DNA of 64,000 nt from Thermomonas brevis. Its GTDB lineage: Bacteria > Pseudomonadota > Gammaproteobacteria > Xanthomonadales > Xanthomonadaceae. This document shows, piece after piece, positions 24,074-29,652 of this stretch. The translations under genes were made by a program, and so were the position numbers. The notes below the pieces were generated by a model, which worked only from the letters and a program-made list of their open reading frames with translations, was not told the origin of the DNA and made no database searches. The stretch spans positions 2,666,001 through 2,730,000 of the forward strand of contig NZ_CP060711.1 in the NCBI RefSeq assembly GCF_014395425.1, written 5' to 3'. The stretch's first letter is position 1. Every line of letters begins with the position of its first letter.

Positions 24074-26314
24074 ATGCGCCGCCTGCCGGGAGTGCTGCTG
24101 GCGCTGGTCCTGTGGGCGCTGGCCGCGTGGCCGGCGCTGGCGCGGGACATCCGCGTTCCCGCCGGACTGCACGGCGACGGACGCGCGATGCCGGCGCTGG
24201 CGCGCGAGACGCTGGCCGCGTATCGCGGCGAGCATCCGGGCGATGCCGATCCGGGCGTGCTGTTCCGCTTGCAACTAGCGGCGGGGCAGTACCGGGAAGC
24301 GCTGGTCAGCATCGACGCAGTGCGCGCGCGCGGCGGCGCGGGCAGCAGCTGGCTCTATCTGCAATACGAAGTGCATGCGCGGGCGAAGCTGCTGCAGATG
24401 CATCAGCGTGTGCCGTATCCGCAGGCGTGGCGCAGCGCGTTCCGCGACCGCTTCGGCGCACTCGACGACGCGACCGCACTGCAGGCCGAGTTCGCCTTCG
24501 GCGGCAACCTCGCGCGCATGCGCGCCGACTTCGACGCGGCGCGCGCGGCGCAGGCGCAAGGAACAATGCCGCTGGCGGATGCGCTGGAACTGATTCGCAA
24601 GTACCAGGTGCAGGACGCCTATTCGAGCTTCGTCCCGCTGTTCGCCGCCGCGCTGGCCGAGGACGACGCGCGCCGCTACGCCATCGACCGCGACGCGCTG
24701 GTGCGCACGCCGGACGGCGCGAGCATTTCGAAGCTGGTCGTGCGTCCGGCCGGCGCGCAACCGCTGCCGACGCTGCTGACCTTCACCGTCTACGCCAACG
24801 ACGACTGGGCCTGGGCCGACGCCAAGAAGATGGCCTCGCGCGGTTACGTCGGCGTGGTCGCCTATTCGCGCGGCAAGGGGCGCAGCCCCGACGCCATCGT
24901 TCCCTTCGAGCGCGACGGCGACGACGCCGCGGCGGTGATCGACTGGATCGCCGCGCAGCCGTGGAGCGACGGCCGCGTCGGCATGTACGGCGGCAGCTAC
25001 AGCGGCTTCACCCAGTGGGCCGCGCTGAAGCATCGGCCGAAGGCATTGAAGGCCATCGCCACCTCGGCCACCGCCGCACCCGGCATCGACACGCCGAAGG
25101 AAGGCGGCATCTTCCTCAATTTCATGTACGCGTGGCCGGCGTACGTCGCCAGCAACCGCGCCCTGGACGACGCCGACTACGGCGACGCCGCGCGCTGGGC
25201 GCGCGTCAATCGCGACTGGTATGCCAGCGGCCGCGCCTACCGCGATCTGCCCGCCATCGACGGCACGCCCAATCCGCTGTTCGCCAAATGGCTGACCCAT
25301 CCGGCCTACGACGCCTACTGGCAGGCGATGATCCCGCAGGGCGACGCATTCGCCGGCATCGACATCCCGGTGCTGGCGACGACCGGCTATTTCGACGGCG
25401 CGCAGATCGGCGCGCTGCACTACTTCCGCGAACACATGCGGCATCGCCCGGACGCCGACCACACGCTGGTGATCGGCCCGTACGAGCATTTCACGATGCA
25501 GACCGGCGTGCCGCCGGTGGTGCAGGGCTATCCGCTCGATCCGTCCGCGCGCATCGACCTGCAAGGGCTGCGGCTGGACTGGTTCGACCACGTGTTCAAG
25601 GGCGCGCCGAAGCCGGCCCTGCTGGCCGACCGCGTGAACTGGCAGGTCATGGGCGCGGATGCGTGGCGGCACGCGCACACGCTGGAGGCGATGGCGCCGC
25701 GCACGCAGCGGCTCTATCTGGTGCCGGGCGCCAGCGGTGATTCGCACGCGCTGTCGGCGCAGGCCCAGCCGCAGGCCGTCAGCGTGCAGCGTGTCGATTT
25801 CGCCGACCGCAGCGACGCGGACTGGACGCAGCCGCAGAACGTCGTCAACAACGCGCTCGATCCGCACCTGGGCCTGGCCTTCGTCGGCGAGCCGCTGCCG
25901 CGCGCCGCCGAACTGTCCGGCCCGTTCACCGGCGCGCTGGAGTTCACCGTCAACAAGCGCGACGTGGACGTCGCCATCGGCGTGTACGAACTGAACGCCG
26001 CCGGCGAATACCTCGACCTCGCGTTCTGGCTGCAGCGCGCCAGCTACAACGCCGACCGCCGCCAGCGCCATCTGCTGACGCCGGATCAGCCGCAGCGCCT
26101 CGACGTGCGCGACACGCGCCTGCTCGGCCGCAAGCTGGCCGCCGGCAGCCGGATCGTCGTCGCGCTCGGCGTCATCAAGCAGCCCGACCGCCAGCTCAAC
26201 CTCGGCAGCGGCAAGGAGCCTTCCGACGAAACCGTGGCCGATGCCGGCGCGCCGCTGGAGATCCGCTGGCGCGGCAGCAGCTATCTCGATCTTCCCTTGC
26301 AGGACATCCCATGA
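24074..26314 (+). CDS. Secreted CocE/NonD-type (S15) alpha/beta hydrolase
   Basis: 746 residues from the ATG at 24074, 4 bases after hutU, giving a signal peptide ending PALA-RD near residue 24. An N-terminal helical domain (about 30-215) precedes the catalytic domain with nucleophile Ser308 in YGGSYSGF; TTGYFDGAQIG and PYEHFTMQTG hold the likely Asp and His. The C-terminal jelly-roll domain (about 510-740) is typical of X-Pro dipeptidyl-peptidase/CocE proteins. Substrate is unknown: acyl ester or peptide. The stop overlaps the next gene (ATGA). Confidence 0.85.
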   Translation: MRRLPGVLLALVLWALAAWPALARDIRVPAGLHGDGRAMPALARETLAAYRGEHPGDADPGVLFRLQLAAGQYREALVSIDAVRARGGAGSSWLYLQYEVHARAKLLQMHQRVPYPQAWRSAFRDRFGALDDATALQAEFAFGGNLARMRADFDAARAAQAQGTMPLADALELIRKYQVQDAYSSFVPLFAAALAEDDARRYAIDRDALVRTPDGASISKLVVRPAGAQPLPTLLTFTVYANDDWAWADAKKMASRGYVGVVAYSRGKGRSPDAIVPFERDGDDAAAVIDWIAAQPWSDGRVGMYGGSYSGFTQWAALKHRPKALKAIATSATAAPGIDTPKEGGIFLNFMYAWPAYVASNRALDDADYGDAARWARVNRDWYASGRAYRDLPAIDGTPNPLFAKWLTHPAYDAYWQAMIPQGDAFAGIDIPVLATTGYFDGAQIGALHYFREHMRHRPDADHTLVIGPYEHFTMQTGVPPVVQGYPLDPSARIDLQGLRLDWFDHVFKGAPKPALLADRVNWQVMGADAWRHAHTLEAMAPRTQRLYLVPGASGDSHALSAQAQPQAVSVQRVDFADRSDADWTQPQNVVNNALDPHLGLAFVGEPLPRAAELSGPFTGALEFTVNKRDVDVAIGVYELNAAGEYLDLAFWLQRASYNADRRQRHLLTPDQPQRLDVRDTRLLGRKLAAGSRIVVALGVIKQPDRQLNLGSGKEPSDETVADAGAPLEIRWRGSSYLDLPLQDIP

Positions 26315-27184
26315 CCCGTGTCGCCATCCTCACGCCCGATCCGGCGGAAGTCGCCTATCCCGACCTGTGGCCGAAAGTGCTGGCGCGGCTGCAACGCGCG
26401 CTGGACGGCGCGGGCATCGAGGCCGTGCCGACGCCGTGGACGGCGCACATGGACGATGCGGCTGGCCTGCACGATTACGCCTGCGTGCTACCGCTGCTGG
26501 TCTGGGGTTACCACCACGACGCCGCGCGCTGGCAGCGGGCCTGCGCGACCTGGGAGAGCGAAGGCGTGCCGTTGGCGAACCCGGCGAAGGTGCTGGCGTG
26601 GAACACCGACAAGCGCTACCTGCGCGAACTGGCGGAACGCGGCGTGGCGATTCCGCCGACCACGTTCACCGATGCGCTGTCGCAGGATGTGGTCGAACGG
26701 GCCTTCGCCGACACCGGCGCGGACGAACTGATCGTCAAGCCGGCGGTGTCCGGCGGCGCATGGAAGACCCGGCGGTTGCAGCGCGGCGAAGCGGTCGGTG
26801 CGACGGACGGCATGGCGATGCTGCTGCAACCCTTCCTTCCGACCATCGAGACGGACGGCGAAACCTCGCTGCTGTATTTCGGCGGACGCCTGAGCCACGC
26901 GGTGAACAAGCGCCCGGTGGCCGGCGAGTTCCGCATCCAGGAGGAATTCGGCGGCCAGTACGCGCTGGTGCCCGAGCCGCCGGCCGCTGCGGTGGCGCTG
27001 GCCGAACAGGTGCTGCAAGCCGTCGGCGAGCCGCTGCTGTACGCGCGCATCGACATGGTGCCGGACGCCGACGGCCGCTGGCTGCTGATGGAGGCCGAGC
27101 TGATCGAGCCGGATTTCTATCTCGGCGTCGATCCGGAAAAAGGCGAAGGATTCGCGCGGGCGCTGCGGGAGCGGATACAGGCCG

Positions 27185-27192
<8 letters not shown>
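26311..27192 (+). CDS. ATP-grasp family protein
   Basis: 293 residues. Resembles RimK/glutathione-synthetase-like ATP-grasp proteins: central LIVKPAVSGGAWKTRR with the ATP-binding lysine, MLLQPFLPTIETDGETSLLYFGG, and the C-terminal metal site LLMEAELIEPDFYL. Such enzymes join a carboxylate to an amine using ATP; the substrates cannot be told. Overlaps the S15 hydrolase by four bases and ends 8 bases inside the convergent ABC-F gene. Confidence 0.78.
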
Positions 27193-28819
<1,627 letters not shown>

Positions 28820-28821
28820 GG

Positions 28822-28830
28822 TTCTTCTCC
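28822..28830 (-). promoter_or_regulatory. Shine-Dalgarno region of the ABC-F gene, sequesterable
   Basis: GGAGAAGAA, two bases before the ATG at 28819. It is exactly complementary to TTCTTCTCC at 28880-28888 and can alternatively pair in a local hairpin TCTTC-TGGA-GAAGA (28836 to 28823). Confidence 0.7.
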
Positions 28831-28879
28831 AGAAGATGAAGATCCTCTGCGCGCGGCGTGCGTGACGCTGGCGCAGGGC

Positions 28880-28888
28880 GGAGAAGAA
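28880..28888 (-). promoter_or_regulatory. anti-Shine-Dalgarno element in the ABC-F leader
   Basis: TTCTTCTCC, starting with the base after the uORF stop codon, a 9-base perfect complement of the ABC-F ribosome binding region 49 bases further on. A ribosome held at the uORF stop would cover it. Confidence 0.65.
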
Positions 28889-28900
28889 TCAGTGGCGCAT
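28889..28900 (-). CDS. three-codon leader peptide Met-Arg-His
   Basis: ATG CGC CAC TGA, preceded by a good ribosome site (CAGGAG, 13-8 bases before) and about 22 bases after the predicted transcription start. It is in frame with the ABC-F gene, and no other stop lies between the TGA and the ABC-F ATG. The layout suggests a regulatory uORF whose translation controls access to the downstream start; the peptide itself is likely not functional. Confidence 0.6.
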   Translation of the reverse strand: MRH

Positions 28901-28928
28901 GTCGGCGTGGTCTCCTGTCGAGGTGGCC

Positions 28929-28934
28929 AGTATA
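28929..28934 (-). promoter_or_regulatory. putative -10 element of the ABC-F leader
   Basis: TATACT on the minus strand (context GCCTATACTGGCC), 29 bases before the uORF ATG. The same bases read forward give TATAGG, a weaker candidate for the DsbA-like gene. Confidence 0.45.
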
Positions 28935-28998
28935 GGCGGCGAGGATGAACGCCGGCCCGCGGCGTGGCAGGCTGTGCATCCCGCTCGAGGAAATGCCC

Positions 28999-29652
28999 AT
29001 GACCGCACTGCGCATCGATTTCGTTTCCGACGTGGTCTGCCCGTGGTGCGCCATCGGGCTGACGTCACTGGAGCAGGCCCTGCGACGCCTCGACGGCGAG
29101 GTGCAGGCCGACATCCACTTCCAGCCGTTCGAACTGAACCCGCAGCTGTCGGCGGAAGGCGAGGGCATCGCCGAACACCTGCAACGCAAGTACGGACTCA
29201 CCGACGCGCAGCTGGAGGAAAACCAGGAGCGCATCCGCCGGCGCGGCGCGGAGCTCGGGTTCGCGTTCGACTTCAACGCACGCAGCCGCATCTGGAACAC
29301 CTTCGACGCGCACCGCCTGCTGCACTGGGCCGGCATCGAAGGCAAGCAGTCCGAACTGAAGCACGCGCTGCTGCGCGCGTATTTCAGCGAGGGGCGCAAC
29401 GTGTCCGATCGCGAAGTGCTGGCCGGGATCGCCGCCGGCGTCGGGCTGGACGCGCAGCGCGCGCGCGAGGTGCTGGCATCGGGCCACTACGCCGAAGACG
29501 TCCGCGCCGCTGAGCAGTTCTTCCAGAGCCTCGGCATCAGCGGGGTGCCGGCGGTCATCATCGAGAAGCGGCACCTCGTCAGCGGCGGCCAGCCGCCGGA
29601 GGTGTTCGAGCGGGCGCTGCGCGAGATCGCGGCGGCGAAGCAGGACGCGTAG
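28999..29652 (+). CDS. DsbA-family oxidoreductase, FrnE-like
   Basis: 217 residues from the ATG at 28999, chosen over an ATG two codons upstream because CGAGGA stands 8 bases before it. Thioredoxin-fold FrnE protein: active site CPWC in DFVSDVVCPWCAIGL (near 16-19), helical insertion, and the cis-Pro loop ISGVPAVIIEKRHLVSGGQP. No signal peptide, so cytoplasmic, unlike periplasmic DsbA. Family members act as polyketide or disulfide oxidoreductases; physiological role here unknown. Confidence 0.88.
   Translation: MTALRIDFVSDVVCPWCAIGLTSLEQALRRLDGEVQADIHFQPFELNPQLSAEGEGIAEHLQRKYGLTDAQLEENQERIRRRGAELGFAFDFNARSRIWNTFDAHRLLHWAGIEGKQSELKHALLRAYFSEGRNVSDREVLAGIAAGVGLDAQRAREVLASGHYAEDVRAAEQFFQSLGISGVPAVIIEKRHLVSGGQPPEVFERALREIAAAKQDA

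Follow-up and report, generated by a model that had tools for sequence, protein, structure and literature searches.

A three-codon upstream reading frame as a candidate translational switch of an ABC-F gene in Thermomonas brevis and its relatives

The leader of an ABC-F ATPase gene in Thermomonas brevis is likely to be a translational attenuator, in which a ribosome held on a minimal upstream open reading frame (uORF) opens the ribosome-binding site (RBS) of the ABC-F gene. This regulatory idea is well supported by comparison of the leader with those of related genes. In uninduced mRNA, the stretch from the uORF to just past its stop codon would pair with the ABC-F RBS and hide it, and a ribosome on the three-codon uORF would cover this anti-RBS strand, so that the RBS would be free and ABC-F would be made. 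Ribosomes quickly starting and finishing on the uORF would leave the RBS mostly closed, and ribosomes held at the start, the first peptide bond, or termination would keep it open. By analogy with known systems, the holding signal might be an antibiotic countered by the ABC-F protein, of the pleuromutilin, lincosamide, or streptogramin A type, or another early-acting inhibitor.

The window, a stretch of 64,000 nucleotides of T. brevis contig NZ_CP060711.1 (positions 2,666,001 to 2,730,000), carries the gene and its leader on the minus strand (Table 1). An earlier note, made from the letters of the window, had listed the TATACT and CAGGAG elements, the uORF, two 9-mers, and the ABC-F start, and all of these were recovered at their places, letter for letter. 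The 9-mers TTCTTCTCC and GGAGAAGAA are perfectly complementary, as had been claimed, a flanking G-T adding a tenth pair if included, and GGAGAAGAA starts 49 nt after TTCTTCTCC on the minus strand. The local hairpin TCTTC-TGGA-GAAGA is likewise present, and the uORF and the ABC-F gene are indeed in frame, 81 nt apart, with the TGA as the sole stop between them. A promoter scan of the window that required a -35 element found no promoter at the leader. No terminator-like site was detected at window positions 28600-29100; the leader is therefore not classed as a transcription attenuator, and control is probably translational. At gathering scores the window matched no Rfam family, and nine leader loci likewise matched none at E<=0.5.

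Table 1. Features of the ABC-F gene and its leader in the window
Feature	Positions	Strand	Basis or remark
-10-like promoter element TATACT, without matching -35	28929..28934	(-)	sequence
CAGGAG, Shine-Dalgarno (SD) of the uORF	28912..28917	(-)	sequence
Three-codon uORF ATG CGC CAC TGA (Met-Arg-His-stop)	28889..28900	(-)	sequence and conservation
Anti-SD strand TTCTTCTCC, abutting the uORF stop; window-specific version of the pairing	28880..28888	(-)	sequence, pair probabilities
Internal hairpin CTGCGC...GCGCAG inside the long helix	28847..28876	(-)	predicted fold
Local alternative hairpin TCTTC-TGGA-GAAGA, still holding part of the SD	28823..28836	(-)	sequence, predicted fold
GGAGAAGAA, main SD and anti-SD partner	28822..28830	(-)	sequence
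ABC-F ATPase gene	27185..28819	(-)	544 aa; start ATG at 28819

The protein has two ABC ATPase domains and a linker, with helices 232-284 and 289-326 between the domains. Its score against NCBIfam NF000355 (ribosomal protection-like ABC-F) is 269.9 bits, below the cut-off of 380, and it is therefore labelled ARE-like rather than an antibiotic-resistance ABC-F (ARE-ABCF). An orthologue is absent from all 24 other genomes of the genus, and relatives at E<=1e-80 occur in 92 of 395 genomes of the family. This pattern (1/25 genus genomes, 92/395 family genomes) fits the tendency of ARE-ABCF genes to vary in presence within genera, as outlined in part of PMC6723617. The closest proteins are P0002 (85%) and P0003 (77%), and the window gene forms the longest branch of the protein tree. 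The segment comprising gene and leader (27185-28934) lies between two genes that are directly adjacent in 6 of 11 sister-species loci. The neighboring protein encoded at 26311-27192 has no Pfam match, and its sole NCBIfam match is D-cycloserine synthetase DcsG (134.6 bits, cut-off 360).

Minimal uORFs proved to be a common feature of these leaders. Of 107 ABC-F leaders compared, 92 belong to the family, the window among them, 14 to other parts of the order, and one to another family of the class. ATG-CG[CT]-NNN-stop (MR-X-stop) is present in 97 of the 107, as compared with 0.1% of shuffled leaders. With the SD and -10-like matches given below, the leaders as a group show a trait of the ABC-F attenuators cplR, vmlR, and are5sc, namely, a conserved and very short uORF that has an SD of its own and lies downstream of a promoter and upstream of the ABC-F gene. 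The earlier note had made its proposal depend on conservation of the uORF in relatives, and the uORF is kept. The encoded peptides are MRH (70), MRQ (23), and MRY, MRT, MRL, and MRK (one each). The narrower pattern ATGCG.CA.TRA was found in 91 of 106 leaders. The distance from uORF to main start is 81-99 nt in 96 of the 97 leaders and 142 nt in L246. Four of the ten leaders lacking MR-X-stop (L227, L234, L236, and L238) come from genomes with a second ABC-F subfamily in the same place, five more have a start-stop codon by eye, and L231 has neither. Just upstream of the uORF, at least four matches to GGAGGT were detected in 94 of 100 leaders (shuffles, 47%). Likewise, a -10-like hexamer (at least four matches to TATAAT) lies 15-55 nt upstream of the uORF in 89 of 96 leaders (shuffles, 33%). 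Since the best such hexamer begins 37-42 nt ahead of the uORF in 75 of 96 leaders, the leader RNA probably starts about 30 nt upstream of the uORF.

Short uORFs were also found beyond this set. Eight further loci from a class-level family gave MRH (3), MNH (1), MKH (1), MISTL and MISAL (one each, by eye), and one ambiguous case; in the distant relatives L273, L274, and L276, which have the MKH, MISTL, and MISAL uORFs (the latter two by eye), ACCCC follows. Two plasmid records carry the uORFs MRN (Pseudomonas aeruginosa) and MRL (Azotobacter). In the P. aeruginosa record (L277, NZ_CP131792.1), which encodes an ABC-F relative, TTGATGC can pair with GGCATCAA. The Cupriavidus leader L278 has no MR-X-stop uORF, given the start taken, and the Sphingomonas leader L003 begins with ATGCGCCAG but its reading frame continues, so it is not MR-X-stop. 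No MR-X-stop was seen by eye in the 8 leaders inspected from 80 distant ABC-F genes (<=40% identity). In a blastn search of leader DNA against 395 family genomes, only short GC-rich matches were obtained besides the window, with a best E of 3.4e-6 among the matches listed.

Comparison of the relatives also points to an RNA pairing between uORF and RBS. There, CCAnTrATGCC, made up of uORF codons, stop codon, and a few following bases, pairs with GGCATc..nTGG in most of ten predicted folds, and the final GG of the latter is part of the main SD. Of 85 distinct leaders, 79 contain a 5-bp Watson-Crick partner for the ATGCC at the stop, and in 78 of them this partner lies 17-20 nt before the main ATG. 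Other 5-mers of the same leaders find such a partner in 4.4%; as the leaders are related by descent, these are not 79 independent cases. The element is otherwise nearly invariant, and compensatory versions of the pair occur in L243 (GATGTC/GACATC) and L247 (GATACC/GGTATC). Codon 3 is mostly CAT (His) with partner A or CAG (Gln) with partner C. The codon-3 base and the base before TGG form a Watson-Crick pair in 65 of the 74 distinct leaders scored (permutation mean 41.7, maximum 57 in 20,000), 11 of 85 having no recognizable partner; among the nine exceptions, three are T-G. Counted over all 96 leaders, 14 lack a clear NTGG partner. For the stop-codon base and the base after GGCAT, Watson-Crick pairs number 45 of 74 (permutation mean 33.8): C occurs solely with TGA (39), T accompanies TAA in six of seven, and the other 28 of 74 are not Watson-Crick, nearly all of them G.

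On a tree of 57 proteins, 44 of them scored, codon 3 changed at least six times, and among four independent pairs the partner followed in 2.9 and opposed in 0.0 on average; with so few pairs, the trend does not reach significance (median p 0.25). It is clearest in L137 and L186 versus L136 and L176, which differ at codon 3 and at the stop codon and, jointly with these, at the two partner bases. Because codon 3 varies with its partner base, the choice of His or Gln is best read as a matter of RNA pairing. Behind the stop lies a hairpin, with 94.4% of cells paired, double changes in five of six pairs, and 0 of 500 shuffles doing as well, as counted in 33 of the 35 leaders of alignment A1 (L082 and L208 left out). 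RNAalifold applied to the unanchored MAFFT version of this alignment (35 of 96 leaders) returned only four pairs at -0.3 kcal/mol and did not find the structure; pairs were therefore counted on anchored segments, since the columns of the MAFFT alignment do not match up across the variable linker. Duplex energies were modestly better than those of shuffles (p<=0.05 in 35 and p<=0.01 in 6 of 85 leaders).

The window has its own version of this pairing. Seven other leaders have the very same uORF, but the window lacks the hairpin behind the stop and the ATGCC/GGCAT element of the relatives. The interpretation in the earlier note, which had proposed to look for covariation of the two 9-mers, is supported in part: pairing of the uORF and stop region with the RBS is conserved with compensatory changes, and the exact 9-mer pair is seen in the window alone. 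Among 111 leaders, TTCTTCTCC is present in that of the window only; outside those 111, it also occurs in L293, behind the stop hairpin (CTGATTCTTCTCCC). A deletion may have brought TTCTTCTCC next to the uORF stop in the window. Since TTCTTCTCC abuts this stop and pairs with the SD itself, the function of a strand at the uORF stop that hides the RBS, served by a different pairing in relatives, would be kept in the window with other letters. In L288 and L293, the ABC-F genes appear frameshifted while the uORF leader is intact, which may reflect assembly errors.

A covariance model of uORF and hairpin, searched against 149 family genomes, gave 20 strong matches (52 to 67 bits), one per genome, all preceding an ABC-F gene of this subfamily; several of them are sequences from which the model was built. 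Two of these 20 genes look frameshifted. The best match after these reached 26 bits; ten of 31 weaker loci were inspected, and no ABC-F protein is encoded at any of the ten. The diverged leader of the window was itself missed by the model.

At random window positions, a 15-nt RBS segment has a complement of at least 9 bp within the preceding 85 nt in 1.2% of cases, and the chance of a 9-mer complement at one fixed place was 89/400,000. The leader RNA of the window (from 28922) folds more stably than shuffles (z -2.1; 6 of 200 shuffles equal), and its duplex energy by itself is ordinary for GC-rich DNA (p 0.28). Given this ordinary energy and the 1.2% of random positions that are as complementary, the window leader taken alone is suggestive, and the weight of the argument rests on the relatives. 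In the predicted fold of the free leader, the nine TTCTTCTCC/GGAGAAGAA pairs have pair probabilities of 0.91-1.00, the six examined SD positions GGAGAA have an unpaired probability of 0.00, and a further pairing joins GCCGACATG, at the start of the uORF (28898-28906), to CATGCCGGC, at the main start (28812-28820).

With a ribosome footprint on the uORF, freeing the SD and AUG is predicted to cost 5.7 instead of 10.5 kcal/mol, as compared with 8.9 kcal/mol for footprints elsewhere in the leader (means of 89 leaders), and the uORF footprint beat the mean control in 79 and the best control in 55 of the 89. These calculations suggest that uORF occupancy would open the RBS. Prediction and covariation point to a fold that would conceal the main SD and could not coexist with a ribosome on the uORF. 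For the window, the cost fell from 12.1 to 6.4 kcal/mol, one control being slightly better (5.8). With the uORF covered, the main SD is predicted to remain mostly paired in the local fold, and hence induction in the window may be partial.

Several other readings of the leader were considered. Ribosomes ending at the uORF stop might restart at an ATG overlapping it (TRATG), their passage opening the main site. Of 89 distinct leaders, 86 have such an overlap, and in 41 of these the frame opened by it reaches or passes the main RBS; start-stop sites with reinitiation are known from E. coli (described in part of PMC9841429). However, this frame stops within 40 nt in 44 of the 86, its phase relative to the main gene varies, pairing remains in the three leaders without an overlapping ATG (window, L178, and L247), and pairing with GGCAT explains the same bases. 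We regard this termination-reinitiation relay as unlikely. About equally improbable is a static or condition-dependent RNA structure, such as a thermometer or a site of RNA or protein binding, that hides the SD and in which the uORF is passive. The helix would hide the SD whether or not the uORF is translated, but one would not expect a strand that is merely passive to keep a start codon, SD, and stop while codon 3 and the type of stop vary.

It is quite doubtful that the tripeptide itself, fMet-Arg-His or fMet-Arg-Gln, serves as an arrest sequence or ligand sensor. Each of the 97 MR-X-stop leaders has CGC or CGT as its second codon, although this was preset by the search pattern and the figure to weigh is 97 of 107; in L270 and L273, codon 2 encodes Asn and Lys. 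The third residue can be His, Gln, Lys, Tyr, Thr, Leu, or Asn, the choice between His and Gln tracks base pairing, and several tripeptides function in Bacillus subtilis vmlR (the relevant part of PMC9226507). Readthrough of the TGA, which the earlier note had envisaged as yielding an extended ABC-F protein, is very improbable. The TGA is the sole separator in the window, and a single stop likewise separates the frames in 20 of the other 24 in-frame leaders, but conservation of the frame is lacking: 25 of 89 distinct leaders are in frame, close to the one in three expected by chance, and the linking peptide differs between lineages where they are. We favor attenuation by a ribosome held on the uORF.

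Such attenuation has well-known counterparts. In the erm and cat translational attenuators, a ribosome on the leader ORF exposes a hidden SD; unlike the three-codon uORF here, their leader peptides are longer and their sequence matters. The closest precedent is Clostridioides difficile cplR, an ARE-type ABC-F gene with a uORF MR[I/M] and a sequestered main SD, in which translational attenuation suffices for repression, as given in part of PMC10201436. It shares with the leaders described here the three-codon Met-Arg-X uORF and the hidden main SD. In contrast, cplR belongs to a Gram-positive host and also has an intrinsic terminator, none being seen in the leader of the window, and in the relatives studied here pairing with the RBS is made by the codons of the uORF itself, with covariation at codon 3. 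B. subtilis vmlR similarly combines a tripeptide uORF (MIN, with variants MDN, MDK, and MRK also working) with an SD-sequestering hairpin, but its 219-nt leader additionally uses transcription attenuation and RNA polymerase pausing (PMC9226507, in part). Streptomyces are5sc (MLV) and tiaA resemble the present leaders in having a very short uORF ahead of an ARE5 ABC-F gene, and toeprints at are5sc revealed start-codon stalling by lincosamides, a pleuromutilin, and streptogramin A; these actinobacterial genes differ in their predicted terminator/anti-terminator control, and for the second are5sc uORF, MRS, the portion of the report concerned states that translation was not seen (PMC12421871). 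Among the openly licensed PMC papers listed for ABC-F leaders and start-stop uORFs, no report of the present leader was found.

A still shorter form was found in a second ABC-F subfamily, identified by searching 247 family genomes with an ABC-F protein whose gene lacks an MR-X-stop leader. All 20 loci in 18 genomes (L249-L268; 18 of 18 distinct leaders) have a start codon directly followed by a stop codon, as ATGTGA, GTGTGA, or ATGTAA, about 94-135 nt before the ABC-F start (L253 and L254 by eye). Such hexamers occur in 3.5% of shuffled leaders, the real leaders being related. ATGTGA and GTGTGA contain an overlapping second GTG that can also open a short frame, and the two ATGTAA leaders are without it; E. 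coli uses start-stop sites with an overlapping second start, as portrayed in part of PMC9841429. Behind the start-stop codon lies a CU-rich stretch that may pair with the main SD. Such pairing is plausible, but simple helices in these leaders, taken singly, were not better than those of shuffles (smallest p 0.17; the main starts of L253 and L254 were misplaced in this test). We tentatively consider it possible that proteobacterial ABC-F genes share minimal uORFs, either Met-Arg-X-stop or bare start-stop, as peptide-independent sensors, in which the dwell time of the ribosome during initiation, first peptide bond formation, or release might be read by an RNA strand serving as codon and anti-SD at once. 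Since the start-stop form has no elongation step, its signal could only be initiation or release.

Our findings would place uORF-controlled ABC-F genes in Gram-negative bacteria, namely, in the family of T. brevis, another family of its order, one more of its class, and two Pseudomonadaceae records. The design would be economical, with uORF codons doubling as the anti-RBS strand, and the "peptide" would thereby be set in part by RNA pairing. With these leaders, one could ask directly what an ORF of three codons, or of one, is able to sense.
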